Shown piece after piece: positions 257 through 26,748 of a DNA stretch of 28,815 nt. The translations under genes were made by a program, and so were the position numbers. The stretch's first letter is position 1. Each line of letters starts with the position of its first letter. The notes under the pieces are model-generated. The model did no database searches, had not been told where the DNA came from, and saw only the letters and a list, made by a program, of their open reading frames with translations. Source of the stretch: a virus; the IMG/VR virus record IMGVR_UViG_3300027859_000061, positions 1 to 28,815 of that record; one strand, written 5' to 3'.

Positions 257-889
257 TTAAGGAAGATAGTTAATCCATCCTGTGATTGCATACTTAGTAT
301 CTTGCAATGGTGGGTTACCTCTATGCACATGAGTAAACCCAGCTGGCCAACATACAAATCTTCCTTTCACTGGCGATACTCTTACACCTTGATATAAGAA
401 TTCTGTTTCACCACCATCTTCTACATCATTTAGATACACCATGTATGCAAGTATACTTGTTCTATCATATGCACTTGAACCACCTTCGAAATGCCAGTTA
501 TGATATCCTTCACTTGGTCTTGTCTTTTGCATTTTCATTTGTGCATTATAAAGACCACTATAAACACCTGAGTCAATTACAGGATATCTTATTTGCCATG
601 ATTCTATCACATCATTGTGAATCCAATCACCTATATCTCTGATTGCACCATTAGTCATTGTGTCCATCTCTGTAATGAATATTGATGTATCTGACCTCTG
701 TGCGATATGAGCGCCATAGTCTCTTCGTGTATGAGTTAGACCATGTTCTTCATGTTCATCAAATATACGGATACATTCATCACATACATCATCACCAATA
801 ATACCATCTAGTATTCTTATATGTTCACCAGTCGAATCATCCCATGGTAATTCTACTCTGTTCTTTACTGTTTCTCTATTATCTGCCAT
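257..889 (-). CDS. 2OG-Fe(II) oxygenase, prolyl-4-hydroxylase-like
   Basis: This 210-aa protein has the double-stranded beta-helix pattern of the P4H-like 2OG-Fe(II) oxygenases. The metal site reads YHNWHFEGG, so the first two ligands would be H133 and E135 (HxE in place of the usual HxD). The distal histidine is H189 in HVHRGNPP, and K199 in KYAITGW is placed to bind the 2-oxoglutarate carboxylate. Such enzymes use 2-oxoglutarate, O2 and Fe(II) to hydroxylate a substrate, which cannot be predicted here. It is the last of four tandem oxygenase-like genes; its ATG overlaps the stop of the upstream one as TAATG, so translation is probably coupled. The HxE variant leaves some doubt about activity. 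Confidence 0.85.
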   Translation of the reverse strand: MADNRETVKNRVELPWDDSTGEHIRILDGIIGDDVCDECIRIFDEHEEHGLTHTRRDYGAHIAQRSDTSIFITEMDTMTNGAIRDIGDWIHNDVIESWQIRYPVIDSGVYSGLYNAQMKMQKTRPSEGYHNWHFEGGSSAYDRTSILAYMVYLNDVEDGGETEFLYQGVRVSPVKGRFVCWPAGFTHVHRGNPPLQDTKYAITGWINYLP

Positions 890-1560: not shown

Positions 1561-2266
1561 TGTCATCTCCTTTTGGGTGATAGAAAGTCACTTGCGTGAA
1601 TCTCCAGTTTTCTAAGTATCTATGATAGTCTTCTATATATGCACCATGCATACAATTACCAGGAAATATCACACATCGATTGAACTTCGCAGGTATAACT
1701 TTTCTTATGTTGAATCTCTCTTCTACAGGATATAATAATGCCATGTTCTCATCGTTAGTAATCCATTCACCATCATATATTGCAGTTCCACCATCTTCTT
1801 GTTTATCAAGATAGACTAACATGTTGAGTGTAGACAAATGGTCTGGCGTATTCAATGCACTATCAATGTGAGGATAGTGTTGCATCTTCTTATCAAATAC
1901 TTCTGCTGTCTTGAAACAGTTGAACTCATATAGGCGTGACCAATCATAATGACCTTTGAAGAAATATCGTCTGCATAAATCTAATAATCTCTGTTGAGAG
2001 TTTTCATATAATCTAGTTGGGTGACCAACCTTGTCTACAATTCTACAGTCGAAGTAATCTATACCATTGCGTGTGTTAGATTCAGGATTATATTTCCATA
2101 ATGGGTATTGTCTGTTGATTAAGAACTCGTGTAAGTCTTCTGCATTTTCATAGAAGTCATCTATCACAATTGAGAAACCATCGAATGTATGATTATCAAA
2201 TGAACCTCTCATTTTGTATAGTTCATCGTAATCTACTATTCTGTTGATGTCATCTATGTGGTTCAT
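1550..2266 (-). CDS. 2OG-Fe(II) oxygenase-like protein
   Basis: This 238-aa protein carries a recognisable facial triad: H133 and D135 in YPHIDSAL, and H207 in FPGNCMHGAY, with R222 (NWRFTQ) in the expected 2OG-binding position. The segment LNMLVYLDKQEDGGTAIY matches the core strands of the fold, where a GGT(A/E)IY/F pattern is typical of phage and bacterial members. The substrate is unknown. The start ATG overlaps the TGA of the preceding gene (ATGA), so it is translationally coupled. It differs strongly from its three oxygenase neighbours, so the cluster is not a simple recent tandem duplication. Confidence 0.8.
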   Translation of the reverse strand: MNHIDDINRIVDYDELYKMRGSFDNHTFDGFSIVIDDFYENAEDLHEFLINRQYPLWKYNPESNTRNGIDYFDCRIVDKVGHPTRLYENSQQRLLDLCRRYFFKGHYDWSRLYEFNCFKTAEVFDKKMQHYPHIDSALNTPDHLSTLNMLVYLDKQEDGGTAIYDGEWITNDENMALLYPVEERFNIRKVIPAKFNRCVIFPGNCMHGAYIEDYHRYLENWRFTQVTFYHPKGDDNGY

Positions 2267-3006
2267 GTCAAAACTCCATAATCAAATTGGTCGCCATGAT
2301 GATATGATTCTAAATCTTCGGCGTGTTGTAAGTTAAAGGATATACTTATGCGTTCATAAGATTCATTTTCTCGTGGGTGACCCTTTGGTACGCTATGCAT
2401 TAGATACGATGGCCACAATAAAAAGTCACCATCTTGTGGGTGAAAGTTGAATGATGTATGTTGTCGACCAGTAAATTCATATTGTGAGTCTTCTGGTCTC
2501 ATCTCATCATCATTACCTGACTGACTATGTAATGCAGGCATATTAGGATTCCAGAACTTGATTGGTTCTGATGAGTCTTGCGTTGAGACATAGTATGTGC
2601 CTGATAGTCTAGACTTAACATGATTATGACATTCATGGTCATGTGGTTCATTGTATACATTCACCCATGCAAAGAAATGTATATCGTGTCTATTGACATC
2701 TGTAAAATCTAAATTGTATTGACTTCTACAAAACTCAACATAGGTATCTTTCATCTGATTTGCAAAGTCATTATACCAAGGTTGTTGGTGTGTCTGTTCT
2801 CTTGCATCAGGATAAAAGTATGTGGTGTATTCTGTTAGTGGGTCACCTTTCGGTAATGTGTCTATTATATTTCTACAGTGGTGTGCAACCTCTGTATGAT
2901 TTAGATTTACTTTTCCTTGAAATATAGTTGTAGGGAAGACATTGACATAATCTCCTCTACAAGGTGAATAAGTATTGTTAATTCTGTTCGTCTGTATTGG
3001 TTTCAT
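2263..3006 (-). CDS. Putative 2OG-Fe(II) oxygenase (2OG-FeII_Oxy_5-like)
   Basis: The 247-aa protein resembles the family of putative 2OG-Fe(II) oxygenases in which the iron site sits in an H-x-H...SGTYYV context: here H127 and H129 precede SRLSGTYYVST. The later part GDFLLWPSYLMHSVPKGH gives the distal His (H204), and the Arg in ERISISFNL (R219) is the likely 2OG ligand. The N-terminal VNVFPTTIFQGKV is also usual for this family. His replacing Asp as second ligand is a family feature rather than damage. Its start lies 29 bases inside the preceding lipoprotein gene, and the next gene begins at its stop. It is the first of four tandem oxygenase-like genes. Confidence 0.75.
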   Translation of the reverse strand: MKPIQTNRINNTYSPCRGDYVNVFPTTIFQGKVNLNHTEVAHHCRNIIDTLPKGDPLTEYTTYFYPDAREQTHQQPWYNDFANQMKDTYVEFCRSQYNLDFTDVNRHDIHFFAWVNVYNEPHDHECHNHVKSRLSGTYYVSTQDSSEPIKFWNPNMPALHSQSGNDDEMRPEDSQYEFTGRQHTSFNFHPQDGDFLLWPSYLMHSVPKGHPRENESYERISISFNLQHAEDLESYHHGDQFDYGVLT

Positions 3007-12488: not shown

Positions 12489-14291
12489 TTAATAGTCGTA
12501 TCTTTTGAGAATTCGTGTATAGAGTTTCTCAGCCTCTTTTTTGTTCTTGTCTTTATATCTATTTCTACTTCTGACAAGTGGCGTATCTGTTGATACAGCG
12601 GCGCCTGTTGCGTTCACTGGTGCATCTTCATCTATGACATTGTTATGGGCATCCCAATCTAGAATGTATTCCATCATGTCATCTGCAACTTTATAACCTG
12701 CGGTCTTATCACTAGGATAGTGTATACCTGCGTTGACTCTTCCTTCACCCGATTTGTCTGCCATTTCAAATAATTTATCTTGATGTGCAGGATATATTTT
12801 ACTATAGTAGTTTGCAATTACTTTTGCCTGTAGTGCATGATTACTAGGATACGCAGGTGAATGTGCTGTCTCAGTATCTAAGAACTTTATAGGCATACCA
12901 AGTTTCTCTGCGACAACATATGGTCTTGGTCTCATGTATTTGTTTTTAAAATGTCTGCCTACATTTCTTGCACTTTTCTTTAATAGTTCCATAAAGTTCT
13001 CGTTGAACTCTAAGTCATTGTCTTCCATGTATTCTTTGATATAGTATGATGTGTCTTCATCTGTATCAATATACTCTTTCTTCTTGGCGTCAGATAAGTT
13101 TTTAATTTGTTTACTCATCTGTTCTAATTCTGCCTTTGTCTCTTTTGATGTGTTTGCAGGCGGGTCTTTCATCTCTAGTTTATCTAGACATTTGATATCA
13201 AAATATTTACCTAGTTCTTTCTTCTTAACATTTTTTGCATCGAATTGTGATTTAAGACTATCTAACTTCTGAACTGACTCAATAAACATCTCATTCTGAA
13301 TACCAAGTTTCTTGTCAACTGCCTTTGTGCCTTTCTCTATTGATTGACCCATTGACTCTGCCCATTTGACCATTCTCTCTTTCATGACTTTGCCTGCCTT
13401 AGTCTCACCTGCACTCTGTAATCCTGAGTATGTCAATGCAAGTGCAAGACCTGTAGCACCACCCATCCAGATAGGAAGACCGCCTGTTGCCATACCTACA
13501 GATAGTAAACCCATACCTTTTATACCATCAGGTGTGGCGATTAGTTCTCTGAAACCTGCCTCTCCTGCAAATGCTTGTGGTATTATCGTAAGGTCAAAAT
13601 CAGATTCAATATCACCTGAGAATGACATTCTTAACCACTGACCAATTGCAAGTCCTGATACTGCAACTGCACTCAGTTTTGATAGTGCTGGGTTTGACTG
13701 CATAAACTCATCAGTCTTTATGATACCTCTTTCTAATTTCTGAAATGATTTTGTATCATGAATAGCGGCGCCACCAACTGTAAGAGTTTTACCTACAGTT
13801 CTAAGTGTGCCCATGACAATTCTTGATGATGCGGATATAGAACCACCAATTGCCTTAACTGTATTGTATACTGATGGTTGTTTAAATGCAATTTGTATTG
13901 TTTCTAAATCGGCGCCAACTGCATCTACAACACTTTGAACATGTTGTTTTAAGTCTTTGACTGTATCTGGTAATGTCTCATCTACTTCTGGTTCTTGTTC
14001 TGCCTCTGCACCATCACCAACACCATCTGCATAATCATCTGCCTCTTTGTCTTCTGGTTCTGGTTCGTCTGATTGTGATTTGTCGGCGATTGCCTTTTTG
14101 AGTTGTTTTGTTTTCTCTGAATCAGGATGTGCCTTGATGTATGCCTGTTGTTTCTCTGGCGACATATCAAAGAACCATGCATCTTTCTTTTTAGTTTCTT
14201 CGATTAGTAATTCTTCGAATACTAAATCTACAGTGTCACACCATTTTCTATAGTCTTCATCTATGTGATATAATACTTCTTCAATATACAT
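12489..14291 (-). CDS. 600-aa protein with C-terminal PAP2-type phosphatase domain
   Basis: Residues 1-60 are charged, 70-110 an acidic linker (EPEPEDKEADD), 150-310 contain Gly/Ala-rich hydrophobic stretches (GLLSVGMATGGLP), and 320-430 are coiled-coil-like. Residues 449-528 carry the full PAP2/vanadium-haloperoxidase signature. Motif 1 is K449-x6-R456-P457, motif 2 is PSNH (482-485, Asn for the usual Gly), and motif 3 is R518-x5-H524-x3-D528. The domain should remove phosphate from a phospholipid, nucleotide or other phosphoester via a phospho-His intermediate. Its placement in a large protein among virion-type genes suggests a structural or injected enzyme rather than a housekeeping one; that is inference. 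The start overlaps the previous gene by 11 bases. No signal peptide is visible. Confidence 0.75.
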   Translation of the reverse strand: MYIEEVLYHIDEDYRKWCDTVDLVFEELLIEETKKKDAWFFDMSPEKQQAYIKAHPDSEKTKQLKKAIADKSQSDEPEPEDKEADDYADGVGDGAEAEQEPEVDETLPDTVKDLKQHVQSVVDAVGADLETIQIAFKQPSVYNTVKAIGGSISASSRIVMGTLRTVGKTLTVGGAAIHDTKSFQKLERGIIKTDEFMQSNPALSKLSAVAVSGLAIGQWLRMSFSGDIESDFDLTIIPQAFAGEAGFRELIATPDGIKGMGLLSVGMATGGLPIWMGGATGLALALTYSGLQSAGETKAGKVMKERMVKWAESMGQSIEKGTKAVDKKLGIQNEMFIESVQKLDSLKSQFDAKNVKKKELGKYFDIKCLDKLEMKDPPANTSKETKAELEQMSKQIKNLSDAKKKEYIDTDEDTSYYIKEYMEDNDLEFNENFMELLKKSARNVGRHFKNKYMRPRPYVVAEKLGMPIKFLDTETAHSPAYPSNHALQAKVIANYYSKIYPAHQDKLFEMADKSGEGRVNAGIHYPSDKTAGYKVADDMMEYILDWDAHNNVIDEDAPVNATGAAVSTDTPLVRSRNRYKDKNKKEAEKLYTRILKRYDY

Positions 14292-15367: not shown

Positions 15368-15802
15368 TTATACTAAAGAACCGTATACTTTGAACGAACC
15401 TGATTCTAGTTGTTCGTATTTGACTTTTAGAGAAACGATTTTCTCTTCTTTGTCTAATTGGTCAATAGGTGTGTCAACTGATTTACCAATTGTTTCGCCT
15501 CGAAGTGAAAACTCTAAGTTCATTTCTCCTGAACCTGAGAACTCTTCTTCTTGAACTTCACCATGACCTTCAACTGAGTTTTTCTTATGAAGACCTAACA
15601 TAGATAGTTTTGATTCCATTTGTGCGATAGCAGCCTTAGGGTTCATGAACTCAGAAACAGCAGTATGTCCTAATATTGCGTTTACTTTGTTCTTAACTTC
15701 TAAGTCATCTATATCATAAGGAACTTTAGATGAAGATAAACCTGCACCTTGAAACCCTGGCATGCCATGGTCTTCGTGTAAATATTCTTTAAATGTTTTC
15801 AT
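15368..15802 (-). CDS. Candidate internal head protein with capsid-targeting N-terminus
   Basis: The 144-aa protein begins MKTFKEYLHEDHGM, closely resembling the T4 capsid-targeting sequence MKTYQEFIAE. L-H-E at residues 8-10 provides the prohead-protease consensus (I/L)-x-E. The rest is unrecognised: a Gly/Ser-rich stretch, a helix (NPKAAIAQMESKLSML) and a beta-rich C-terminal half (MNLEFSLRGETIG, SLKVKYEQLE). AGGAT precedes the ATG. The protein is probably packaged in the head and trimmed after residue 10; what it does there is unknown. Confidence 0.65.
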   Translation of the reverse strand: MKTFKEYLHEDHGMPGFQGAGLSSSKVPYDIDDLEVKNKVNAILGHTAVSEFMNPKAAIAQMESKLSMLGLHKKNSVEGHGEVQEEEFSGSGEMNLEFSLRGETIGKSVDTPIDQLDKEEKIVSLKVKYEQLESGSFKVYGSLV

Positions 15803-15806
15803 AATT

Positions 15807-16070
15807 CTATCCTGTTATTGCGACACCAACACCTAATACTTCTGCGTTGGCGGCGAAGATTTCATCAGAAGGTTCTTTTTCAACAACCTCTGATGAATTT
15901 GCCTTCAATGTGAAAGTCCCAATTAAACTATTAGAGCTATTCTCTATTGAAACAAGTCTATCTGTTCCACCAGAGTTCACTAGTCTTACAGCAGTTGAAC
16001 TGCCAAAGTTTGAACCATTTGTTGTGGATGTTCCACAAGCTGCTTCTGAACCTAATACTTTAATTCTCAT
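15807..16070 (-). CDS. Small beta-rich virion-type protein
   Basis: The 87-aa protein is rich in Ser, Asn, Gly and Val with alternating beta-strand patterns (STAVRLVNSGGTDRLVSIEN). There is no signal peptide or catalytic motif. It looks like a small structural or decoration protein, and is placed between an immunoglobulin-like virion protein and a candidate internal head protein. AGGGAAAG lies upstream of the ATG. No family is recognised. Confidence 0.6.
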   Translation of the reverse strand: MRIKVLGSEAACGTSTTNGSNFGSSTAVRLVNSGGTDRLVSIENSSNSLIGTFTLKANSSEVVEKEPSDEIFAANAEVLGVGVAITG

Positions 16071-16082
16071 AATCTTTCCCTA

Positions 16083-16634
16083 TTAAGCGGCGACTGTTAT
16101 TGTGCCGGCTGCTGTTCCAATTGCACCACTATTTGTGATAGTTGCGTTACCACCACCAGCAGTGTCAACAATAGTTCCACCATTTAGTGAAATTGCGTTT
16201 GCACCAATACTTAGTTCGTCACCTGCTGATGTAGCTGCATTACCAGCTGCAATTGCAAGATTGAATACTAATTCGTTGGTTGTTGAGCCACTTGCATATG
16301 ATAATGTGTGGTTTGCTCTTTGGTCATTAACAACAGTTAATTGTGGTGTTCCTGCTACAGTCACATTCTCGTTAAAGAATACTTTAACTGATAGTGTTCC
16401 ACCATCTGATTTATCGAATGCTGTAGAAACAAAGTCTATCTCAACGATGTCTGCCTGTCCGATACCAACAGCAAGGTCAGCACCAGTAGCAACTAAGATT
16501 TCTTCAAGATTTCTTGAACCAACTGTTTTCTTTAAAACCCAACCTTCAGGTTTTGCGATACAGTTCTTAGCGTCAGCAGTAGATAAGTATTTTGGTTTTG
16601 ACTCATCTGAGTCTGATACTCCCCATAATGCCAT
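16083..16634 (-). CDS. Virion structural protein with Ig-like domain
   Basis: The 183-aa protein starts MALWGVSDSDESKPKYLS, an N-terminus I recognise as typical of structural proteins in T4-like marine phages. Residues 75-180 look like a bacterial immunoglobulin-like repeat of the kind with 'VxFNENVTVAGTPQLTV' strands, low in Lys and rich in Thr, Ala and Gly. Such domains decorate capsids or tails and bind weakly to surfaces or sugars. AGAGAGGAAA provides a good ribosome site. The exact place in the particle cannot be told from sequence. Confidence 0.65.
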   Translation of the reverse strand: MALWGVSDSDESKPKYLSTADAKNCIAKPEGWVLKKTVGSRNLEEILVATGADLAVGIGQADIVEIDFVSTAFDKSDGGTLSVKVFFNENVTVAGTPQLTVVNDQRANHTLSYASGSTTNELVFNLAIAAGNAATSAGDELSIGANAISLNGGTIVDTAGGGNATITNSGAIGTAAGTITVAA

Positions 16635-16648
16635 TTTATTTTCCTCTC

Positions 16649-17227
16649 TTATTTAGCATATTTCAATACTGTTTTGAAAACCTTATCGAAATTTGTTTTA
16701 TCTTTTTGTAATAACTGTAAGTATTTAGTTCGAACAGGCGCTCTAATTGACATTAAAGCGTCATGAACTTTGACTGCATCGTCTCTTTTTACCTTGATTT
16801 TCTTCATATCGTCTGTTCTGACTTCACCATCTTTAGTGATATCTTTAAACTTACGAAGTTGCATCAACATAGAGGCGTCTGGTCTGTTCTGAACACCCTT
16901 TGCCTTAGATTGCATTGCATCTAAAGCTCTTTGGTATACTTCATCCTCTTCGGCTTCTGAATACTTACCCTTTGCCATTGTAGATATTTTATCTAGTTTG
17001 GCTTTCAAGTCTTTCTCGTTCTTTGCCTGTGCAACTGCACGAGCGACTTTCTTATTGCCTGCATCTGACATCATGCCAAAATCAGCAATTTTCTCCATAA
17101 TCTTGTTGACTTCGCCTGCCTTTTTCTTGACATAACCAAGTTTCAACAATTTCTTTTTGAAACTTTTTCTTCTTGCATCAGTAGTGAGAATCTTCTCAAT
17201 CTGTGCGTTTGTTAATTCTTTTGCCAT
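16649..17227 (-). CDS. Lys-rich helical protein, candidate internal head protein
   Basis: The 192-aa protein is very Lys-rich and helical, with no hydrophobic segment and no Cys, similar in style to its neighbours but lacking the MKTF-type leader. It begins MAKELTNAQIEKILTTDARR. Its start overlaps the stop of the 845-aa gene as TAATG, so the two are made together. A DNA-binding or core-scaffold role in the head is plausible from composition and position only. Confidence 0.55.
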   Translation of the reverse strand: MAKELTNAQIEKILTTDARRKSFKKKLLKLGYVKKKAGEVNKIMEKIADFGMMSDAGNKKVARAVAQAKNEKDLKAKLDKISTMAKGKYSEAEEDEVYQRALDAMQSKAKGVQNRPDASMLMQLRKFKDITKDGEVRTDDMKKIKVKRDDAVKVHDALMSIRAPVRTKYLQLLQKDKTNFDKVFKTVLKYAK

Positions 17228-19764
17228 TACTTATTTGGCATTCTTGCATGTTTCTTGGCAAGTGCCTCTTTTTCTCTTCTATGTGTATCTGATAGTCTCT
17301 GTTTCTCTCTTGCCTTTTGAACAGCGTCTTCATACATTTGTGCATATTCGTCCATGACATTTAGTTTATCATATGACATTGATTCAAATGCACCTGCTCT
17401 TCCTTTGATTTTAGACTTTCTTCTTAATGCTTTCATTTGAATATTTCTTAGCATTTGACCGTGTTTGCCCTCAGTAAATGTTTCTTGTTTTTTGTCTGAA
17501 ACTTCTTCAAAGAAAGTCCCACCATCAACTGCCTTCATAAGGTCATATTCATATGCCATTTCGTTTGTTGCTCTTCCTGTTTTGATGTGGGTCACTGCAT
17601 ATGAAAGTTCTTCTCTTGTCATAGTGTCATGAGCGCCGAGTCTCTCTAATCTTCCAAATCGTTCATACATTTTTGCAAATAGAGCATCTTTGTCATCGAA
17701 TCCTTTTTCCTTTTGTTCAGGAGTTGCCTTTAATTTTTTGAAACTTCTGAGAGTTCTATTCATTTCTGCATTTGCTTTTGCATTTTCTCTCATACTATCG
17801 CCGATAAATGCAAAGTAGTAATCTTTGTCATAGATAGGATATGATAAGACAATATATGCACTTGGAAACATACTATTGTTATAATACATTCCACCTGCTT
17901 TCTCGTTTTTCATTATCCATTCTTCTTCTTTTTTATCTATGGCAAGTTTTTTTGCATAAACATCAAGAGGCATTTCTTTTGACATTTTTGCTTCTGAAAG
18001 AACTGACTCATTTGCCATAGTGACATCTGACATACCACCACCGTCTAACATATTCTTCTTGATTGACTTGTCGAATATGTAATCAACAACTGCGGTGAAA
18101 CCTCTCATGTCTGTATCTGATACTGCAAACCCACCTGAAATCTTTTCTAGTTTTGCACCAACTTTCTTAGTGACTACTTTCAGATGTTTCTCTAAACTCT
18201 TGTCTTTTACTTTTGTGAATTTAAGAACTTTGCCTTCTACAAGTTCGCAATGTTCAGCATTTTGCATATCTCTGTATGCATCAAAAGAGTTCATGATTGG
18301 TCTGCCTTTTGAATCTTTCTGTCTACTTGCAGCTCTATCACTCATCATCTTCATGGTGTTAAGTTCACCAATCAATGATAATACTTTCTGTTGTGCCTTT
18401 AGTATTGCCTCGTATGTAGGATTAAACCCTGTGCTTTTGAGTGTCTTGTCACCTGTCTTTGCGATTTGTTGATAACCTTTCTTGACTTTTTCCATGTCTT
18501 TAGAAAGTTTCTTCGCCATGTTTATTTCTTTATCGGTAACTTCGTTTATTGATTCACCCATTTTCAATATGTCACTAATACTTGCCTGTGGTTGTTGACC
18601 AGGTTTTGTAGGTTTCATAGGGATTTGTTTAGCAACCCTATAGAATTTTTCTATTGATTTTAAACCTTTTGAAATACCACTACGAATATCTGCAAATGCA
18701 GGTGCTGAAAGACCAGAACCTCTCATAGTTTTATCTACTTCTTTGAGCATATTCTTTAGTTTCTTTTCTAGAACTTTAACTTTCTTTACATCAGCCTTGT
18801 CATATGGTGCTTCACCTAAAACACTTCGAACTTCTTCTTGAATATTCTTTTGTAGTTCTTCGTTGTATGGGAAACCTTTTAGAGGATTCTTACTAAACTC
18901 ATTTTTCTCTGTGTGAACATAATTTGGTTTCAACATCTTAGCTGCTTTCTTTCTATCATGATATTTTAATACATGTTTTTTACCCTTGTCATCTTTGACA
19001 AGATAACCTGTATTTGTTTTTTGAATGATTTTACCAAATTGTTTATTGCCCTTAGAGTCATAAAAATCATGTTCTAGACCAACTCTCGCACTTTTAGATG
19101 TCTCTGTGCCCATACCATATTGTGCAAGTTTTCTGTAGTTTTCATCTAATGGAACTTCTTTGTAACCATCTTTTTTAAGTTGTGCAATTTTCTCTTTATC
19201 TTTTTTAGATATTGTAGCACGAGAATAACCACCCTTATCTTTAACTAATCTGACATGAGTGTTTTTACTGAAATGAGAAGCTGCCTTTTTAGCCATTTTA
19301 TCTTGACCCCAAAAAGAACCTTCCATTCTGGCAGAGAAAGCACTTCTAGGTGTGTTTGCCATGTGACCACTTCTAGCTCTAGTAATTGCATCACTTTCAC
19401 TATTTGCAGTGACTTTTACTTCGCCTCTTGGTCCTTTAACAATGTATCGTCTGAATTCATTAAGGTCTTCTCTGATATCATATTCTACTGATTCATTTGC
19501 ATACTTCAATGCACTCTGAACTTCTTTTGATTTAAGAATCTTATCACCATAGAACTTTTTGATTTCACTAGATGCGACAGACATTGCACCTTGTAAATCA
19601 AGTGCAACTTCTACTGCCTTTTTTATTTGTGGGTCTTTGACTTTATTTCGTCTAAAGTAAGTAGATACTTCACGACCTGTGAGTTTTTGTTTACCATAGG
19701 GGCCAAGGGGATTGACCTTACCATCTTTATCTAAAACCTTTTTTGACTCGTGAAACAAGTTCAT
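17227..19764 (-). CDS. 845-aa Lys-rich protein with multiple prohead-protease-like sites
   Basis: This large protein is rich in Lys, Glu, Ala and Met, with long helical stretches and no catalytic motif I can name. It has several sites that fit the T4 prohead-protease rule (I/L)-x-E followed by a small or other residue: L316-G-E318/A, I406-N-E408/V, L508-V-E510/G and L589-S-E591/A. It also contains NPLKGFPYNE at residues 293-302, which recurs in the 161-aa protein encoded at 22787-23272. CAGGGAG precedes the ATG. It may be a head-core or injected protein processed into pieces; an alternative is an uncut virion or tail-associated protein. Confidence 0.55.
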   Translation of the reverse strand: MNLFHESKKVLDKDGKVNPLGPYGKQKLTGREVSTYFRRNKVKDPQIKKAVEVALDLQGAMSVASSEIKKFYGDKILKSKEVQSALKYANESVEYDIREDLNEFRRYIVKGPRGEVKVTANSESDAITRARSGHMANTPRSAFSARMEGSFWGQDKMAKKAASHFSKNTHVRLVKDKGGYSRATISKKDKEKIAQLKKDGYKEVPLDENYRKLAQYGMGTETSKSARVGLEHDFYDSKGNKQFGKIIQKTNTGYLVKDDKGKKHVLKYHDRKKAAKMLKPNYVHTEKNEFSKNPLKGFPYNEELQKNIQEEVRSVLGEAPYDKADVKKVKVLEKKLKNMLKEVDKTMRGSGLSAPAFADIRSGISKGLKSIEKFYRVAKQIPMKPTKPGQQPQASISDILKMGESINEVTDKEINMAKKLSKDMEKVKKGYQQIAKTGDKTLKSTGFNPTYEAILKAQQKVLSLIGELNTMKMMSDRAASRQKDSKGRPIMNSFDAYRDMQNAEHCELVEGKVLKFTKVKDKSLEKHLKVVTKKVGAKLEKISGGFAVSDTDMRGFTAVVDYIFDKSIKKNMLDGGGMSDVTMANESVLSEAKMSKEMPLDVYAKKLAIDKKEEEWIMKNEKAGGMYYNNSMFPSAYIVLSYPIYDKDYYFAFIGDSMRENAKANAEMNRTLRSFKKLKATPEQKEKGFDDKDALFAKMYERFGRLERLGAHDTMTREELSYAVTHIKTGRATNEMAYEYDLMKAVDGGTFFEEVSDKKQETFTEGKHGQMLRNIQMKALRRKSKIKGRAGAFESMSYDKLNVMDEYAQMYEDAVQKAREKQRLSDTHRREKEALAKKHARMPNK

Positions 19765-19766
19765 AC

Positions 19767-20864
19767 TTAACTCCCTGTATCTCTTTCTTTAGGTGGTACT
19801 GCCTTGTTTGCATCTGCTCTCGCTTTAGCGGCAGTTGAATCTTTATAGAATTTTGCTTTTGACTTAAACTCATTTCTGAATTTGTATACTTGGTCAACAG
19901 CTCTTTCTTCTGCCTCGTCTGAATTTGCAGTTGCCTCATCGTTGTATGCTTTGTTTAGTTTCTTAGCGATTTGTAATAGTGCATTATATCCAACTTTCTC
20001 TTTGTTGTCCATACCGCCATCTGAATTACTATCTTTGCCTACTGCCTTTCTGATACCTGAACTATCTTTTCCTGCATCAGGTATTCTGACATTACCAATG
20101 ATTTCTGAAATCATTTCTACACCAAACTCTTCGATGATAGGCATTAGATGTTCTTTCATCTTCTGCATCTTTCTGATTCTTTCTTTCTTTTTCTGTTCTG
20201 CATCTCTAAGTTTTTGATTTGCATCTTTAACAGACTTCTGCATATCTCTTCTGACTTGTTGAATATCTTTCTTCTCAGGTTTGCCAGACATCATGGTTGT
20301 TTCTTTAACATCTTTTTCTTTAACGATTTTCTTTTTGCCTTCTTCATCGCCTTTCATGATTGGTTCAACTTCATCTACAGTGTATTGTTTACCTGCACAT
20401 GTGAAAGTCTTCTCGCCCATTTCTTTTGCTTTTGCAAGAGCACCTGTGAATTTGTTGCCCTCATCTTTCATTGCCTTCTTGATAGCAGCTCTTCTCTTAT
20501 GAAGATACTCATCTGATGAATCTGTATCGCCATCGTTATCGATATCTGCATCTGCCTTACCGACAGGGTCGAGTTTCTTTTCTTCGATTGTTTCTTCTTT
20601 GAGTTCTGGATGTTTATCAAGAACATCGTCTTTTGACATGCCTCTTGATAACATGAACTTCATGATACTTTTTTTGTCACCCATGACATGAGCTTCGTCA
20701 TCGCCAGGTTTTGGTTTCATAAATCTTACACCTGCCTTTTTGGCAAGAGGCATAAGTTTACTCTCAGACCCACGAACAATCTGCATTGCAACTTTCATTT
20801 CTGATAGTTCTAATACAGACTTTGAAGCGTCAAGCATAGATTGTGATAAATCTTTAATTGACAT
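19767..20864 (-). CDS. Charged coiled-coil protein with EF-hand-like loop
   Basis: The 365-aa protein contains a calcium-binding type loop at residues 107-118 (DIDNDGDTDSSD), with Asp at positions 1, 3, 5, 7, 9 and 12 and Gly at 6, as in EF-hand or dockerin loops. It is followed by EYLHKRRAAIKKAM. A long Lys/Glu/Arg coiled coil occupies about residues 195-245. I recall this KADADIDNDGD...EYLHKRR segment from other T4-like marine phage proteins. There is no enzymatic motif. The start overlaps the stop of the upstream gene as TAATG. Probably a virion or head-core component. Confidence 0.55.
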   Translation of the reverse strand: MSIKDLSQSMLDASKSVLELSEMKVAMQIVRGSESKLMPLAKKAGVRFMKPKPGDDEAHVMGDKKSIMKFMLSRGMSKDDVLDKHPELKEETIEEKKLDPVGKADADIDNDGDTDSSDEYLHKRRAAIKKAMKDEGNKFTGALAKAKEMGEKTFTCAGKQYTVDEVEPIMKGDEEGKKKIVKEKDVKETTMMSGKPEKKDIQQVRRDMQKSVKDANQKLRDAEQKKKERIRKMQKMKEHLMPIIEEFGVEMISEIIGNVRIPDAGKDSSGIRKAVGKDSNSDGGMDNKEKVGYNALLQIAKKLNKAYNDEATANSDEAEERAVDQVYKFRNEFKSKAKFYKDSTAAKARADANKAVPPKERDTGS

Positions 20865-21229
20865 TATAATTCCCCTTTATCGAAGTAGTTAAACATCTTC
20901 TGTTTACCTGCCTCATTTAGTCTTAATGATTTCGCAAGTCTGCCAAGCATATTGCGTTCTGTTAGTTTCTCGATGGATTTTTCTACTGATTCGGATTGTT
21001 CAGCGAGTTGTGTCTCTACATCTCTGAGTTCAGTTTCAAGTCGGAGTTTTTTCTCTTCGAGAGACTCCACTTTTGTTTCTGACTTCTCTGCCTCTTCCTT
21101 AAATTCTTCTTTAAGTAGCGCTTCGATTTCATCCTCTGTAAGTGTGTCCTCGTTTACTGGTTCTACTACAGGTTGTTTGCCATGTGCTCGAACTTGTTCT
21201 AGTTTGTCTTTCCAACTTTGATTTTCCAT
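20864..21229 (-). CDS. Acidic coiled-coil protein, candidate core/scaffold component
   Basis: The 121-aa protein is acidic and heptad-like from residue 30 to 95 (LEEKKLRLETELRDVETQL), with a short basic C-terminal part (MLGRLAKSLRLNEAGKQK). This is the style of small head-core or assembly chaperone proteins, but no family is recognised. A perfect late box TATAAATA lies eight bases before the ATG and there is no Shine-Dalgarno site. It is the first gene of the transcript that continues into the EF-hand-like and 845-aa genes. Confidence 0.55.
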   Translation of the reverse strand: MENQSWKDKLEQVRAHGKQPVVEPVNEDTLTEDEIEALLKEEFKEEAEKSETKVESLEEKKLRLETELRDVETQLAEQSESVEKSIEKLTERNMLGRLAKSLRLNEAGKQKMFNYFDKGEL

Positions 21230-21237
21230 GATATAGT

Positions 21238-21245
21238 TATTTATA
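21238..21245 (-). promoter_or_regulatory. Late-promoter box TATAAATA
   Basis: A perfect T4-type late box on the minus strand overlaps the stop of the upstream 93-aa gene and ends eight bases before the ATG at 21229. The expected transcript start is two or three bases upstream of the start codon, leaving no room for a ribosome binding site. Confidence 0.65.
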
Positions 21246-21522
21246 TGTTCTCAATCCTTATGATTAAGTCATTTTCCCCTTTTATTACTCTGTGATAAAC
21301 CATCTTCTGTATAAAGTAATCATGACCTATCATTAATTCTTCTGGCAACTTATCATCAAACTGCAATTGCCAACCTTGTCCACCTAAGATATGAATTTTT
21401 CTATGCGTTCTATCTCTATGCCAGACTAATTCTTCTTCTGAAACATCACTACTAAAGGTTCGAACTATGTAGTTTCGACCTGTTCCATGCTGTTCTAATA
21501 CCTGTTCAGTATATGGTTTCAC
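21241..21522 (-). CDS. Small cupin-like protein
   Basis: The 93-aa protein reads as a short beta-barrel: YIVRTFSSDVSEEELVWHRD, then a GGQGWQLQFD strand, HDYFIQKMVYHRVIKG and DLIIRIE. WHRDRTHR and YHRVIKG give His residues at cupin-like positions, so a metal may be bound. I recall similar short cupin-like proteins in T4-like marine phages. The start codon is GTG (21520-21522), preceded by the ACTAAATA box at five bases and no Shine-Dalgarno sequence. Function is unknown. Confidence 0.6.
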   Translation of the reverse strand: MKPYTEQVLEQHGTGRNYIVRTFSSDVSEEELVWHRDRTHRKIHILGGQGWQLQFDDKLPEELMIGHDYFIQKMVYHRVIKGENDLIIRIENI

Positions 21523-21526
21523 ACAA

Positions 21527-21540
21527 ATATTTAGTTGTTA
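21527..21540 (-). promoter_or_regulatory. TAACAACTAAATAT element upstream of the cupin-like gene
   Basis: An exact copy of the 14-base element at 4157-4170, located the same distance before a start codon (ACTAAATA box plus five bases). It lies in the short gap after the stop at 21545. Identical sequence and spacing at two unrelated genes suggest a regulatory signal rather than chance. Confidence 0.4.
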
Positions 21541-21544
21541 ATTT

Positions 21545-22081
21545 TTACCAGAAAAATGAACCACCACCACTCAAACCTAATTGTTTTGCGTATCTTGGTA
21601 GTCTACAAGACCAATAACCTGGTGTAGTTTTATCGTTTGCAGTATCACAATTATGTCTTGCAACATAAGATGCTCTTGCTTTTGGGTCTTTGAATTTTAC
21701 ACTTAGACCTGATGTATCTCCAAATGTGACTTTCTTTACTTTGTCACCATCTTTGACATACACATAAAACTTCTTAGGCCCACCTGCTTTTGGTTTGCCT
21801 ATAGGTTTGTCTTCATTCTCTTCGTTTATTTCCATCATAGGACAATCTAAGGGAACTAAATTGCCCTCAAATACATCATATTCACCTAAATCTGTTTCTA
21901 GAATCATACCATCTATTTCGGTAAGTCTATATTTTTGTTCTTTTGCGAGTCTTCGTGCCTCGTTAATGATTTCGAAATACATCATTGAACCTAATCTGAA
22001 AGGATTGTCTAACAGATTTGTATGGTTTATCTGCATCTCATCGAGTGTTTCTCTTATTGCAAGTTCTTTGAATGTCTTCAT
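21545..22081 (-). CDS. Candidate head-targeted protein with DUF5872-like domain
   Basis: The 178-aa protein begins MKTFKELAIRETLDE, a T4-type capsid-targeting leader with a possible cut after I-R-E (residues 9-11). The C-terminal half (about 95-175) matches what I know of DUF5872: KKFYVYVKDGDKVKKVTFGD, then ARHNCDTANDKTTPGYWSCR and LPRYAKQLGL. The paired Cys (HNC, WSC) suggest a metal site or disulfide. Function of the domain is unknown; it is common in phages and could bind DNA. The ATG overlaps the upstream TGA as ATGA, which fixes the start at the targeting peptide. Confidence 0.7.
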   Translation of the reverse strand: MKTFKELAIRETLDEMQINHTNLLDNPFRLGSMMYFEIINEARRLAKEQKYRLTEIDGMILETDLGEYDVFEGNLVPLDCPMMEINEENEDKPIGKPKAGGPKKFYVYVKDGDKVKKVTFGDTSGLSVKFKDPKARASYVARHNCDTANDKTTPGYWSCRLPRYAKQLGLSGGGSFFW

Positions 22082-22488
22082 TTTTGTGGTATTGCGTTTT
22101 TGTCTGCCTTTTCTATAGGTTTCTTTCTTTTCTTATTGAGTTCTTGTTTGATTAAACCCTTTCTGAGTTTCTTAGCAATTCTGGCGATAGCGGCAGTCTT
22201 CTTATCTAAAAACTTACTGAGTGCAATCTTTTGACCCATGCCCAAGTCTTTCTCTGATTTACCTCTGAGTCTTTTCTTTTTAAGAACTAATCTTGCCTTC
22301 TTCTTTGCTCTTCTGTCAATAGTTTTCTTATCTATCTTAATTTTTTTAGAAGCAATCTTTCTGGCGATTTTCATTTTGTTCTTATTCTTTCTAGCCGCCT
22401 TTGCTCTTTTAAGACGAGTCATCATAGAGTCGACTCTTTCGTCTAACTCTGTGCTATCGTCTTCTAAAAATTCACGAAATGTTTTCAT
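22078..22488 (-). CDS. Highly basic head-targeted protein, histone-like
   Basis: The 136-aa protein starts MKTFREFLEDDSTELDERV, a capsid-targeting-like leader with L-D-E at residues 15-17. After the leader it is almost entirely Lys/Arg/Ala/Ile: by my count 50 of 136 residues are Lys or Arg. Such a protein would bind DNA strongly and, if packaged, could neutralise or condense the genome, much as T4 internal proteins are basic and leave the head with DNA. Start and stop overlap neighbours (TAATG upstream, ATGA downstream), fixing the start at the leader. Confidence 0.7.
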   Translation of the reverse strand: MKTFREFLEDDSTELDERVDSMMTRLKRAKAARKNKNKMKIARKIASKKIKIDKKTIDRRAKKKARLVLKKKRLRGKSEKDLGMGQKIALSKFLDKKTAAIARIAKKLRKGLIKQELNKKRKKPIEKADKNAIPQK

Positions 22489-22787
22489 TAGTCTTCTAAG
22501 TCTACCTTACCGTCCCATTTGCCTGATTCAATTTGTCGTATCATGTCATAACATGCACTTTCGACTGCTTGTAAACCTTTAAATATTTTGTCTGGTCCTT
22601 GAGCTGCACGATTGTTATATTGAAACTTCTCGTGGTCTTTGTTAAGTTTTTCAACAGTCTTTAAAATCTTTCTATAACCATTGATTTCTGACTTTCTGTT
22701 AAACTCTGAACCTTTTTTCTCAGCAGGACTTTTCTTATGAAAGTCTATTCTCTCGTTCAGTTGATTATATTCTTTAAATGATTTCAT
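22488..22787 (-). CDS. Small head-targeted protein of unknown function
   Basis: The 99-aa protein begins MKSFKEYNQLNERID, with the targeting pattern and a site L-N-E at residues 10-12. The rest is a charged helical protein with SACYDMIRQIESGKWDG near the C-terminus; no family is recognised. TAATG overlaps at both ends place it in a translationally coupled chain with the DUF5824-like gene upstream and the basic protein downstream. Confidence 0.65.
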   Translation of the reverse strand: MKSFKEYNQLNERIDFHKKSPAEKKGSEFNRKSEINGYRKILKTVEKLNKDHEKFQYNNRAAQGPDKIFKGLQAVESACYDMIRQIESGKWDGKVDLED

Positions 22788-23272
22788 TATTTACCACCAA
22801 CTTGTTTTGCGAGGTCTTGGTCTGCACCACCCCATGTTCCTTTAGACTTTGTAGTAAAACTATTCACTCTTGCCAGACCCCATTGGGTTGGATTAGTTCC
22901 TGGTCTATGTCCTGTTCGCCATGCCGCTACACCTCTTTTGAATACTTTCTTTAGTATACCCAATGGCATGCCTGATTTCTCTGCTTTGTTTTTCAAAGCG
23001 GCATCAGGATTTGATTCTTCTAATTCAATAGCAGCCAAGTCTTCTTCAATCTCCATAAGATTTTTATCAAACCCAAACTGTTCGTTGTAAGGAAAACCTT
23101 TTAGTGGATTATCAAAAGCCATAGAAAAATGTTGTTTCTGTTGTGCATCATTGGCCTTTTTTGCTTCTTTGATGTATTCATCTACACTCTCTTTGTAGTT
23201 AGTTTCTAACTCACCTGGTGTCTCTGACTGTAGGTATTTTAGATACTCATCTGTTCCCATTTCATGTGGCAT
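22787..23272 (-). CDS. DUF5824-like phage protein
   Basis: Residues 90-161 match the DUF5824 pattern found in many T4-like phages: AEKSGMPLGILKKVFKRGVA, then AWRTGHRPGTNPTQWGLARV and NSFTTKSKGTWGGAD. The N-terminal half is acidic and contains NPLKGFPYNE at residues 55-64, shared with the 845-aa protein. Function of the domain is unknown. Unlike its downstream neighbours it lacks an MKTF leader. The gene follows the DUF6321-like gene by one base. Confidence 0.7.
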   Translation of the reverse strand: MPHEMGTDEYLKYLQSETPGELETNYKESVDEYIKEAKKANDAQQKQHFSMAFDNPLKGFPYNEQFGFDKNLMEIEEDLAAIELEESNPDAALKNKAEKSGMPLGILKKVFKRGVAAWRTGHRPGTNPTQWGLARVNSFTTKSKGTWGGADQDLAKQVGGK

Positions 23273-23273
23273 G

Positions 23274-24191
23274 TTATTTCTCCTTCTTATCTAAATAGGC
23301 GGCAATCGCCATTTGTCTAATCTTTTTATCTGACTTACCTTTAAACTGTGGTGCATCAGACTTTCTAAAATCGTCTATGTAATCTCCTGCATCTGCATTT
23401 GGTCCTAGTTCTTCATACTTAACTTTGTGCATTTTGTCTTTGATTTGGTCCATTCTCTTATGAATACCCATTAAAGAATCTTTTCTTCCACCTGACTCAG
23501 CCTTATCTGCCTGTGTTCTTAAATCGGCAAGTTGTTTCTTCAAGTTCATATACTTACGCACATCATATGATTCTTCTAGTTCTTCATTGTATTGTGCAAC
23601 AATCATACCTATTTGATTGATAAGAGATGTGATTACTGGTGTAGGTAATGTTGATAGTTGTTGCATTGTATCTTTAGATAGACCTTTAACTTTCTTTAGA
23701 TTCTTTTTCCAAGTAGATATTGCAGTCATATCTTTGTTCTTTTCATTCATCTCTGGAACACAATCTGGTACCATTTTCTTACCTTTCTTCTTCATACCAA
23801 CTTGTTTATAACCATCCCAACATGCTTCTTTTTCTAGTCTTTTGCCATCTTTATCATACTTACCTGATTTTTTCTTTGCGATAGCAATTGCGGCTTGTTG
23901 TGCAGGTGATACTGCCTCACCATACATTTGTTTGAACTTATCTGTATGTTTAGATGGTTTAGTTTTCTTTAGTTTGCCGTCTTTGTCTCTATCACCTGGT
24001 GCTTCTTTGTATGCATTAGGGTTGTCATCAGACATACTTGCACCCTTTTTAAAGTGTGCATCTCTGGCGTCTTTCTTATCTTTCTTTACACCTGAATAGT
24101 ATTTCTTAGGTTGAGTTCCCTTTTTGTCATCGACATCTGGGTCTTGTGCGACTCTTCTAAGTTTTTCTAATATGTTATCTAACTGACTCAT
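23274..24191 (-). CDS. DUF6321-like phage protein
   Basis: The 305-aa protein has near its N-terminus the block KKYYSGVKKDKKDARDAHFK followed by DDNPNAYKEAPGD, which I associate with DUF6321 of marine T4-like phages. A second block, CWDGYKQVGMKKKGKKMVPD with Cys at 124 and 144, recurs in such phages as well. The C-terminal half is helical and Lys/Asp-rich. No activity is known. The start is at ATG 24191, five bases after a perfect late box, without a Shine-Dalgarno sequence. Confidence 0.65.
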   Translation of the reverse strand: MSQLDNILEKLRRVAQDPDVDDKKGTQPKKYYSGVKKDKKDARDAHFKKGASMSDDNPNAYKEAPGDRDKDGKLKKTKPSKHTDKFKQMYGEAVSPAQQAAIAIAKKKSGKYDKDGKRLEKEACWDGYKQVGMKKKGKKMVPDCVPEMNEKNKDMTAISTWKKNLKKVKGLSKDTMQQLSTLPTPVITSLINQIGMIVAQYNEELEESYDVRKYMNLKKQLADLRTQADKAESGGRKDSLMGIHKRMDQIKDKMHKVKYEELGPNADAGDYIDDFRKSDAPQFKGKSDKKIRQMAIAAYLDKKEK

Positions 24192-24195
24192 AATA

Positions 24196-25488
24196 CTATT
24201 TATACTTTTTTGTAAGTAATTGTCTTTGTCTCCATAAAGAAGAAGGTTTGTTATTAGGGAAAGATGTAGACCATGTCATAAGTTTACTAAACAATGAGTT
24301 TGTTTTCTTTTGTAGTGTTGACAAATCATCATCATTTGTGACTTGAACAAAGTCTTTTTTGAATATCTTCTTCATGATATCAATATTCTTTTGTGACCTA
24401 TCCCAATCTTTCTTAACTATTTCAGGTGGTAATTTTCTAGCACGCATTGAGTTTCTTTTTTGTGCGTTATCTAATGATGCACTTACATACACCATCTTAG
24501 ATTCATACCCCAATCTATCTAACATACCTTTGTAGAATTTAATCTTACTTGAATCTGCACTTGTAGTATCGAAAACAAGACCTAGTCTGCCATCAATGTA
24601 TCTGTCCATCATTCTAGTAGTTTGTCTTTTTGCTTTCTTTCTGATTGGGTCTCTGATTTCAGCAGGCACAGTTTTTAAATCTAGAGTTTGACCTGCCTTT
24701 TTTAAACCTGTTTCAAATGATTTATCTGTATTGACTATCTTCAAACCTAATGCCTTGAATGATAATTTATTTACTACAGTTGATTTACCAGAACCTGGAC
24801 CACCCATTAAGAATACTGCCTTGAAAATGCCTGGGTCATATACACCCTCTTGAATTAAATCTTCTTGCATGTAAAGTGGTAGGTGTGTATCTTCGTTGAT
24901 ACCCATACCCTTACGCACATCTTTGTATAGTTTGTCTGCGAACTGTTTATTTGCCACACCTTGTTTGAATGTGTCGAAGTCTCCTTGTTCAGCGGCAGCT
25001 CTCATTTTACTTGCACTCATTCCTGATACATCATCTGCATCGGGGTCTCTCTCACCTGCACTGACTATCTGTATCTCATCGAACTTATAGAAACCATGTC
25101 TTGCCTTTGTGCCATTGTATTTCTTTAGTAATGCATCGAACTCTCTGATTCTATCTGAACCTGCAACCATATAGATACTTCTATACCCTTGACTGTATAA
25201 TGCGTTTGCAATTTCAAATACAGTTCTTGCACTGACATCTGGCACTTTGACTTTCTTACCAAAGAACTTTCTTAGATAGTTTACTTTCTGTTTGTGATTG
25301 AGTGGATTCTTTTTCTTATCGTTTGAATGTGATGTAAATACCATTGCATCACCACCAACTTTCTTTGCAAGTCTATTCAATACATCAACTAGTTTTGCGT
25401 GTCCTGTTGTCGGTGGATTGAAACGACCAAATGCAAACACTACTGGTCTGTTCTTTGCTTCTGATATAAATCTTTTTAGTGTTTTCAT
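24196..25488 (-). CDS. Capsid-targeted NMNAT-like nucleotidyltransferase fused to P-loop kinase
   Basis: The 430-aa protein starts MKTLKRFISEAKNRP, a capsid-targeting-like leader with I-S-E/A at residues 8-11. Residues 16-195 form an HIGH-type nucleotidyltransferase: GRFNPPTTGH (21-30) and MSASKMR (157-163), as in NMN adenylyltransferases. Residues 222-410 are a P-loop kinase: GGPGSGKST (229-237) and VFDTTSADSS, close to zeta-toxin/PNK-type kinases. Between them, I212-Q-E214/G fits the prohead-protease rule, so the two domains might be separated in the head. The order resembles NadR (NMNAT plus nicotinamide-riboside kinase), making NAD salvage a candidate, though the kinase half looks less like NadR. 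An upstream TTG at 25500 is rejected: ATG 25488 shares its A with the upstream stop (TAATG) and starts exactly at the leader. Confidence 0.75.
   Translation of the reverse strand: MKTLKRFISEAKNRPVVFAFGRFNPPTTGHAKLVDVLNRLAKKVGGDAMVFTSHSNDKKKNPLNHKQKVNYLRKFFGKKVKVPDVSARTVFEIANALYSQGYRSIYMVAGSDRIREFDALLKKYNGTKARHGFYKFDEIQIVSAGERDPDADDVSGMSASKMRAAAEQGDFDTFKQGVANKQFADKLYKDVRKGMGINEDTHLPLYMQEDLIQEGVYDPGIFKAVFLMGGPGSGKSTVVNKLSFKALGLKIVNTDKSFETGLKKAGQTLDLKTVPAEIRDPIRKKAKRQTTRMMDRYIDGRLGLVFDTTSADSSKIKFYKGMLDRLGYESKMVYVSASLDNAQKRNSMRARKLPPEIVKKDWDRSQKNIDIMKKIFKKDFVQVTNDDDLSTLQKKTNSLFSKLMTWSTSFPNNKPSSLWRQRQLLTKKYK
24197..24204 (-). promoter_or_regulatory. Late-promoter box TATAAATA
   Basis: A perfect late box on the minus strand overlaps the last two codons and stop of the kinase-fusion gene (TAT AAA TAG) and ends five bases before the ATG at 24191. 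The T4 rule puts the first transcribed base at the start codon. Confidence 0.6.
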
Positions 25489-26693
25489 TATTTGTCCCAA
25501 TTCTTGGCGACTGTAAAGTTATTTAGTGAGAACTCCATTCGGTCTACTAACTTCACTGCCTTGCCATCGTTATCAATTGCAACATATCCTTCTGGATTTA
25601 CTGTCTTCAATCCATTAGAGTCTCTTACAAATGTTCCTATTGATTTTGCTTTGTTTAGTCCTTTTATTATTATATCTTTACCATCAACTAGATTAGTTTG
25701 AAATATAGTCAATGCATTGATGAACACCTTTAAACCTAATAGTTCTCTTCTGAGTTGTTCACCCATTTGTCTTTTTTGTTCTTTTGTTTTTTCCATTTTG
25801 ACTTTTGCAACTACTTTGTTTTTCCAATAGTCATCAAAATGTTTTATGTAATCTGCATAAGAGAGTTTGAATTTACCCTTTCTTATCTGAGTATTCATAT
25901 ATGTTTTGTATGTTGCACCTGCACCTTTCTTCGCAATGGTGTCTTGAACTTTCATAAACTTTATCAATGCAGGTCTTTTGATTTGTCTAAATGCTTTACC
26001 TGTTGTTGATAATGCCTTTGACAATGCAACTGATTCTTTTGCTGTGAGTGTAGAATTACCTGATACATCTTTGTATGTTGCATCATCAATCCATACATCT
26101 CTAGAATTACCTAGTGTTGATATGTCTGCACCAAATGATGCACTAAGGTCTTCTATTGAACCACCAGTGTATGTGGTGTGAAATACTATACCATATTTTG
26201 CGTTTGCAATCTTCTCACCTAAGTCTGATTTGATATCAACTGCATACATTATGGTGTTTGGTTGAAATGTGACACAATCTACATCATCTATCTTTTGCAT
26301 CTTCTTGTCTGAGTCTGTAAACATCAAATCACCTTGCAGTATCTTGTTCCAAGATAGTTTAGATAGATGTCTGAATGATTCTAAGAACTTAGTTTCTAAG
26401 TCGCCAGACAACTCAGGAGCGTCTTTAATCGCCTGTTCTGAGGTGTAATGTAGTTGTGCTTTAGTGAATAGTGATTTCTTTGCGACAAAGAACTGACCTG
26501 TCTCTGGATGTTTTCCTGCCCATATTGCAGGTGCACCATCCCATTTTACAGTCATGTTTACACCACGAGATGAATTGCCTTTCATCATGTCTCGAAGTGA
26601 TTGTAGGAAGTTTATAGATGCACGACCACCATCAATACCATTGTTGATGATTTCGTCTTCTAAATGCTCTAGATGTAGATTTTTCACTGCCAT
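25488..26693 (-). CDS. Divergent covalent nucleotidyltransferase (ATP-ligase-like)
   Basis: The 401-aa protein carries the ordered motifs of the ligase/capping-enzyme superfamily. Motif I is KWDG (K50 the expected nucleotidyl-lysine), then ILQGDLMF (119-126, motif III with Asp for Glu), EGYV (368-371, motif IV) and KAVKL (378-382, motif V). The 240 residues between III and IV far exceed the usual spacing and include a Lys-rich helical insert (about 230-345). It would activate an RNA, DNA or other 5' phosphate with AMP or GMP. I associate the KWDGAPA context with the uncharacterised DUF6267-type phage proteins. A late promoter and hairpin leader precede it, and it is coupled to the nucleotidyltransferase/kinase gene by TAATG, suggesting a joint task. 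Confidence 0.7.
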   Translation of the reverse strand: MAVKNLHLEHLEDEIINNGIDGGRASINFLQSLRDMMKGNSSRGVNMTVKWDGAPAIWAGKHPETGQFFVAKKSLFTKAQLHYTSEQAIKDAPELSGDLETKFLESFRHLSKLSWNKILQGDLMFTDSDKKMQKIDDVDCVTFQPNTIMYAVDIKSDLGEKIANAKYGIVFHTTYTGGSIEDLSASFGADISTLGNSRDVWIDDATYKDVSGNSTLTAKESVALSKALSTTGKAFRQIKRPALIKFMKVQDTIAKKGAGATYKTYMNTQIRKGKFKLSYADYIKHFDDYWKNKVVAKVKMEKTKEQKRQMGEQLRRELLGLKVFINALTIFQTNLVDGKDIIIKGLNKAKSIGTFVRDSNGLKTVNPEGYVAIDNDGKAVKLVDRMEFSLNNFTVAKNWDK

Positions 26694-26722
26694 AGTAGTA
26701 TCACTTTTTGTTCGTGTAATTA

Positions 26723-26735
26723 GTTGCTATGCAAC
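26723..26735. promoter_or_regulatory. Short hairpin at the predicted 5' end of the ligase-like mRNA
   Basis: GTTGC and GCAAC form a five-pair stem with a three-base loop. It begins about six bases after the TATAAATA box at 26741-26748, that is, at the predicted first transcribed base. A hairpin at the extreme 5' end can protect phage mRNA from decay. The stem is short, so this is tentative. Confidence 0.4.
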
Positions 26736-26740
26736 ACTAC

Positions 26741-26748
26741 TATTTATA
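26741..26748 (-). promoter_or_regulatory. Late-promoter box TATAAATA with normal leader
   Basis: A perfect late box in the gap between the 146-aa gene and the ligase-like gene. Unlike the other late boxes here it leaves a leader of about 40 bases before the ATG at 26693. Confidence 0.7.

Follow-up and report, generated by a model that had tools for sequence, protein, structure and literature searches.

Five unrelated proteins encoded in IMG/VR record IMGVR_UViG_3300027859_000061, a fragment of a T4-like marine phage, begin with a short leader resembling the capsid-targeting sequence (CTS) of the T4 internal proteins IPI, IPII and IPIII. The window analysed here is the entire 28,815-base viral record. 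We consider it very likely that this leader, or tag, sends late-made proteins to the core of the prohead, that it is removed by a homologue of the T4 prohead protease gp21, and that the proteins stay in the head with the DNA. Packaging is strongly supported. Relatives of one tagged protein, a two-domain enzyme, have already been found in purified cyanophage particles, and tagged proteins are thus probably loaded into the head and delivered with the DNA.

Leaders in the window and their conservation

The original prediction listed five N-termini of the form MK[TS][FL][KR], each with an (I/L)xE site and each on an unrelated body, and all five are present, on the minus strand. Exact T4 spacing (hydrophobic residues at positions 4 and 7, I or L at 8, E at 10) is found in two of them, both backed by family conservation: MKTLKRFISE of a nucleotidyltransferase-kinase protein (25459–25488, predicted cut E10/A11) and MKTFKEYLHE of a 144-residue protein (15773–15802, predicted cut E10/D11). 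The other three were recognized from their sequence. The site is shifted by one residue in MKTFKELAIRE of a 178-residue protein (22049–22081, predicted cut E11/T12) and by two in MKSFKEYNQLNE of a 99-residue protein (22752–22787, predicted cut E12/R13), while MKTFREFLEDDSTELDE of a basic protein (22438–22488) has D at position 10 and its next site at E17, followed by R. Shifted cleavage sites have precedent, as T4 IPI, which starts MKTFKEF, carries its ITE/A site at residue 19, where we presume it is cut. The overlap between the preceding stop and the ATG is one base for the genes at 25488, 22787 and 22488 and four bases for that at 22081; at 15802 the stop lies four bases away. Without residues 1–20, no BLAST similarity links the five bodies to one another (best E 0.36), and in predicted structures the leader is a short, low-confidence N-terminal helix.

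The leader pattern is not due to chance. Shuffling residues 2–20 of 22 cluster genes produced five MK[TS][FL][KR] starts in none of 20,000 trials, and four leader-plus-site matches in none of the same trials; at internal Met codons, the strict leader occurred twice in about 4,700. Because this pattern had been chosen after the sequence was seen, we also took a rule from T4 genetics, where residues 4 and 7 of the CTS are needed for targeting and residues 8 and 10 for processing (PMC9026906): hydrophobic residues at 4 and 7, I/L/V/M at 8 and E at 10 (hereafter the exact tag). When the same residue classes were placed in all 495 ordered spacings across 3,144 gene calls from 186 related viral loci, the T4 spacing ranked first with 122 distinct N-termini, against 33 for the runner-up and a median of 4. 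One or more exact tags occur in 38 families of these loci, and in 31 of the 38 position 4 is F or Y. The tag is also concentrated in the cluster that lies between the genes for gp41 helicase and gp61 primase: over nine genomes or fragments, T4 left out, 15 of 169 cluster genes follow the exact rule versus nine of 1,504 others (Fisher p 4e-10, a value that overstates independence because orthologues recur in the counts), and a looser spacing gives 22/169 versus 9/1,504. As a control, the rule applied to the whole T4 genome returned four genes: those for IPII and IPIII, gene 61.1, and a gene at 107323–108606 that we take to be gp24. The shell protein gp24 is a gp21 substrate.

Conservation of the leader differs among the five families. 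It is strongest for the 144-residue protein (15368–15802, minus strand; homologues of 31–100% identity in 29 viral loci), in which M1, K2, F4 and E10 stay unchanged across an alignment of 27 sequences with identities as low as 27%, positions 7 and 8 vary among similar residues via many codons, and residues 11–20 are hypervariable; the leader of Pelagibacter phage HTVC008M needs a two-residue gap in this alignment. A fold search with the model of this protein (model confidence 62) gave no significant match. In 23 relatives of the 430-residue two-domain enzyme (24196–25488, minus strand), M1 and K2 never vary, and F7 and E10 rarely do. This enzyme joins an NMNAT-like cytidylyltransferase fold (residues 19–123; Pfam CTP_transf_like, 2e-6) to a P-loop kinase (residues 225–367; AAA_33, 4e-11), and its model has fold matches to polynucleotide kinase and nicotinate mononucleotide (NaMN) adenylyltransferase. 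It matches PHROG 3041 at 8e-66 and shares its synteny in the gp41–gp61 cluster with the cyanophage virion cytidylyltransferase T4-GC190. Jumbo-phage homologues start with the first strand of the fold itself (MSKRCVFMFGRMNP, MKKTCIMVYGRFNP), so that the leader is an added module.

The 178-residue protein (21545–22081, minus strand; PHROG 7595, 6e-14) shows moderate leader conservation, MKTF..xAI.E recurring in close relatives; its homologue in Methylophilales phage Melnitz is the C-terminal part of a 650-residue fusion that starts with a cytidylyltransferase. It had been labelled a DUF5872 protein, a label that Pfam does not support: there was no DUF5872 match and only DUF5754 at E 0.03, below the cut-off. 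The tag is weaker on the remaining two genes. The 136-residue basic protein (22078–22488, minus strand; PHROG 23027, 1.5e-10) has a weakly conserved, looser leader, variable but present in relatives, and leader-bearing basic proteins occur in the same cluster of Melnitz and C48C1. Earlier described as histone-like, it is very basic (about +34 net in 136 residues) but has no match to a histone family. The leader of the 99-residue protein (22488–22787, minus strand; no Pfam or PHROG family) is weakly conserved as well; in a near-identical locus (L033) this gene is replaced by one whose body is 32% identical and which starts MKSFKEYLEE, and other relatives have a different start but keep the (I/L)xE-R junction at the aligned place. 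For most tagged families, Pfam annotation returned nothing.

Late promoter motifs, protease and virion evidence

The T4-type late promoter motif TATAAATA occurs on the minus strand at 26741–26748, upstream of the DUF6267 gene, the first of the operon, and at 21238–21245, directly before the gene at 21229. The number of such motifs in the window alone is not above chance. Across relatives, NATAAATA lies upstream of DUF6267 orthologues in 41 of 66 distinct regions, mostly 32–59 bases from the start (opposite strand, 0/66), and precedes orthologues of the gene at 21229 in all 24 distinct upstream regions. A prohead protease of the T4-type gp21 family (Peptidase_S77) is encoded by 10 of 10 relatives, by 6 of 6 cyanophages and by T4. 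The proposal that the leader is a T4-type CTS, carried as a module on unrelated bodies in a phage group that encodes gp21 and in a cluster with late promoter motifs, is supported.

The virion evidence comes from four cyanophages. The cytidylyltransferase T4-GC190 was detected by mass spectrometry in S-SM1 virions (Sullivan et al., 2010; PMC3037559), and virion proteins also include S-CREM2 ORF154 (PMC10665884), S-SCSM1 ORF91 (PMC9602691) and S-SZBM1_140 (PMC9146016). All four of these cytidylyltransferases carry the tag core: they start MKKFSAFLNEA, MKNFSSFLTEA, MKSFLQFLKEA and, one residue shorter, MRFRQFIIEA, respectively. In S-CREM2, the annotated ORFs with an exact tag are ORF6 (a SAM lyase, Pfam 2e-19), ORF13, ORF14 (a kinase with a GTG start) and ORF154, and each of the four appears among the 52 proteins, out of 219 ORFs, that the study lists for the virion (hypergeometric p 0.003); a first Fisher test, restricted to ATG starts and allowing non-virion genes any in-frame start, gave p 0.045. 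The syntenic cluster of S-SCSM1 has seven genes whose products are marked as virion proteins (PMC9602691), most of them without the tag. Given the complete overlap in S-CREM2 versus the mixed result in S-SCSM1, we regard the tag as a good but not exclusive marker of virion proteins.

For the virion cytidylyltransferases, kinases and SAM lyase of cyanophages, the papers do not distinguish packaging from contamination, and the tag offers a mechanism. It also predicts a peptide beginning right after E10, which for S-SCSM1 ORF91 is AAESGASVQAK, as opposed to EAAESGASVQAK in the uncut protein.

Two further virion proteins have leader-like stretches elsewhere in their sequence. The Cas9-like S-CREM2 ORF12 (L283:7704-10313), detected in virions, has the tag core RFASFMAEAA near residues 18–27 of the annotated protein, the true start of which may lie elsewhere. 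The 69-residue virion protein S-SCSM1_93 (L243:7627-7836) has a leader-like RTFKEFLEYIE at its C-terminus.

Proposed mechanism, alternatives and breadth

We envisage that the tagged proteins would be expressed late from the gp41–gp61 cluster, and that during prohead assembly hydrophobic residues 4 and 7 would dock them onto the scaffold core. The gp21-type protease would then cut after the glutamate of (I/L)xE, freeing the proteins inside the head, where they would be packed with the DNA; the other four window proteins would share this route with the enzyme. By analogy with T4, and given the enzyme payloads, we infer that the proteins most probably travel into the host together with the DNA and do their work before phage gene expression, the two-domain enzyme acting on nucleotides or nicotinamide adenine dinucleotide (NAD). 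Its pairing of an NMNAT-like nucleotidyltransferase with a P-loop kinase makes an early role plausible, either in the metabolism of NAD or nucleotides or in the repair of nucleic acid ends.

Several observations weigh against this reading. No gp21 gene is present in the window, a 28.8 kb fragment, and N-terminal cleavage data were not found for any of these phages. S-SCSM1 ORF30 has an exact tag yet is outside the virion list, and several cluster proteins in the virions of S-SCSM1 and S-CREM2 have no tag, so that another route into virions exists. The authors of the S-CREM2 study caution that abundant enzymes might co-purify with virions (PMC10665884), and kinship among the sequences leaves the enrichment counts partly non-independent. 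The original prediction named homologues without the leader as a refuting result, and such homologues do occur in part: the HTVC008M enzyme has MKTLKELL without the E10 site, and the short enzyme of P-HM2 has no leader at all. Leader conservation is family-wide in the 144-residue protein and the two-domain enzyme.

Among other explanations, the one we take most seriously, while still thinking it unlikely, is that prohead entry and cutting do take place, after which the tagged proteins remain as head or core components that condense DNA or form internal structure, and are no host-acting effectors. One tagged protein is indeed strongly basic, a comparable leader is found on the T4 gene presumed to encode the shell protein gp24, and the largest tagged family among the matches listed below matches a PHROG annotated as a virion structural protein. 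Most recognizable payloads, on the other hand, are enzymes (adenylate kinase, 5′-nucleotidase, SAM lyase, ADP-ribosyltransferase, NMNAT-like), and the T4 internal proteins and Alt are ejected (PMC9026906).

The remaining explanations dispense with the prohead and are far less probable. The leader codons of this group are A-rich, with AAA, ACA, TTT and GAA dominating, and the leader could on that basis be a translation-initiation feature, an A-rich start aiding AT-rich phage genes that have no Shine–Dalgarno site; we judge this very improbable, as residues 7, 8 and 10 are kept despite varied codons, almost all other genes of the same genomes do without the leader, and it is present in S-CREM2, a genome of 47.9% GC. 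Slightly less credible still is a localization signal that directs proteins elsewhere, for instance to the replication complex or the host membrane: the position of the cluster between helicase and primase genes in relatives would suit it, but the exact match to the T4 CTS positions, the detection of tagged proteins in virions and the late promoter motif speak for the head. Least credible is that recombination has copied 5′ gene ends that now serve no function. The same first residues do recur in adjacent genes, but four positions are conserved over deep divergence beside hypervariable sequence, and the gene swap in L033 keeps the leader.

A leader-only DNA search of viral contigs with MKTFKE[FY][ILM]xE, using no other seed, gave at least 81 matches, and all 81 readable ones begin open frames; the 77 long enough to compare fall into at least 24 families. 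Among the matches listed, payloads include a SAM lyase (2e-17), an ADP-ribosyltransferase (ART-PolyVal, 1e-23) and a DPBB lytic transglycosylase (3e-9), while a zinc protease and an RNA 2′-phosphotransferase are matched weakly; the largest tagged family matches PHROG 14802, and all seven leader contigs of at least 70 kb encode a prohead protease. Adenylate kinase (6e-38) and 5′-nucleotidase (3e-13) are tagged in the 186-locus set, and in both the fold starts within a few residues of the predicted cut. In T4 itself, gene 61.1 (NC_000866 18966-19130; L284:467-631), which adjoins gp61, encodes 54 residues starting MKTFKEFIKED, a full CTS; from its sequence, and a position matching that of the marine cluster, it is a candidate for an overlooked T4 internal protein. 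We lean, with less assurance than for the window itself, towards a general modular delivery system across T4-superfamily phages, in which dozens of unrelated proteins, including SAM lyase, ADP-ribosyltransferase, adenylate kinase, 5′-nucleotidase and NMNAT-like enzymes, would be head-loaded and injected, the tag alone would identify injected effectors, and T4 61.1 would be a fourth internal protein. The tag also offers a sequence-only route to candidate injected proteins in uncultivated ocean phages, in which comparing protein bodies with the T4 internal proteins is of no help.

The gene cluster and comparison with known systems

The minus-strand genes of the window extend from an operon with the DUF6267 gene (25488–26693; Pfam PF19782, 1e-92) at its head to gp61-like primase and ribonucleotide reductase genes, and the order gp41 helicase, cluster, gp61 primase, nrdA is common to Melnitz, HTVC008M and many cyanophages. 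The window copy of the DUF6267 gene has no leader; its homologue has one in C48C1 and a leader-like start in Melnitz. The 678-residue profile of PHROG 3041 spans three successive window genes, matching those at 25488, 24191 and 23272 in order (22787–25488), which indicates that the cluster alternates between fused and split forms. Between the promoter motif and the DUF6267 start codon (26694–26748) lies an inverted repeat of the type GTAGTATTAC ... GTGATACTAC, conserved in many relatives and possibly a 5′ mRNA hairpin. Two otherwise different cluster proteins (22787–23272 and 17227–19764) have the motif NPLKGFPYNE in common, possibly a second shared signal. Elsewhere in the window, four genes in a row (257–3006) resemble 2-oxoglutarate/Fe(II) oxygenases, judged by eye alone, and a 600-residue protein (12489–14291) has a weak PAP2 phosphatase-like match (E 0.0015, below the cut-off).

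The signal itself is that of T4 and is known. What appears to be new, and was not found stated in the literature searched, is its use on a conserved late enzyme operon of marine T4-like phages and the link to unexplained cyanophage virion enzymes; no paper naming a CTS in marine phages was found in that literature, most subscription journals being outside its coverage, and the one review that it yielded on CTSs and cyanophages names the latter in its reference list alone. Leader length and key residues are as in T4 IPI, IPII and IPIII, the MKTFKE of IPI being identical to that of two window leaders; as in T4, a gp21-type protease is present (here in relatives), the payload bodies are unrelated and one payload is basic. 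Unlike the T4 proteins, the window payloads include a two-domain enzyme and belong to a conserved operon between gp41 and gp61, the system is found in marine relatives (Kyanoviridae and pelagiphage-like groups), and neither PHROG nor Pfam matched any window protein to an internal head protein family.

T4 Alt, a packaged and injected ADP-ribosyltransferase, is likewise an enzyme in the head that is processed by gp21, as predicted for the window proteins, but it is a different enzyme, and its leader is not known to follow this consensus. The cyanophage virion cytidylyltransferase/NMNAT (T4-GC190, S-CREM2 ORF154, S-SCSM1 ORF91, S-SZBM1_140) is a homologous enzyme with the same tag core in a matching cluster, for which the respective papers name no packaging signal; the window enzyme differs in having a second, P-loop kinase domain. 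Polyvalent proteins (Iyer et al., 2017; PMC5512222) are also effectors delivered with DNA, and an ART-PolyVal domain occurs on one tagged protein, but they are large and multi-domain, whereas the tagged set consists of small separate genes with a common short tag.

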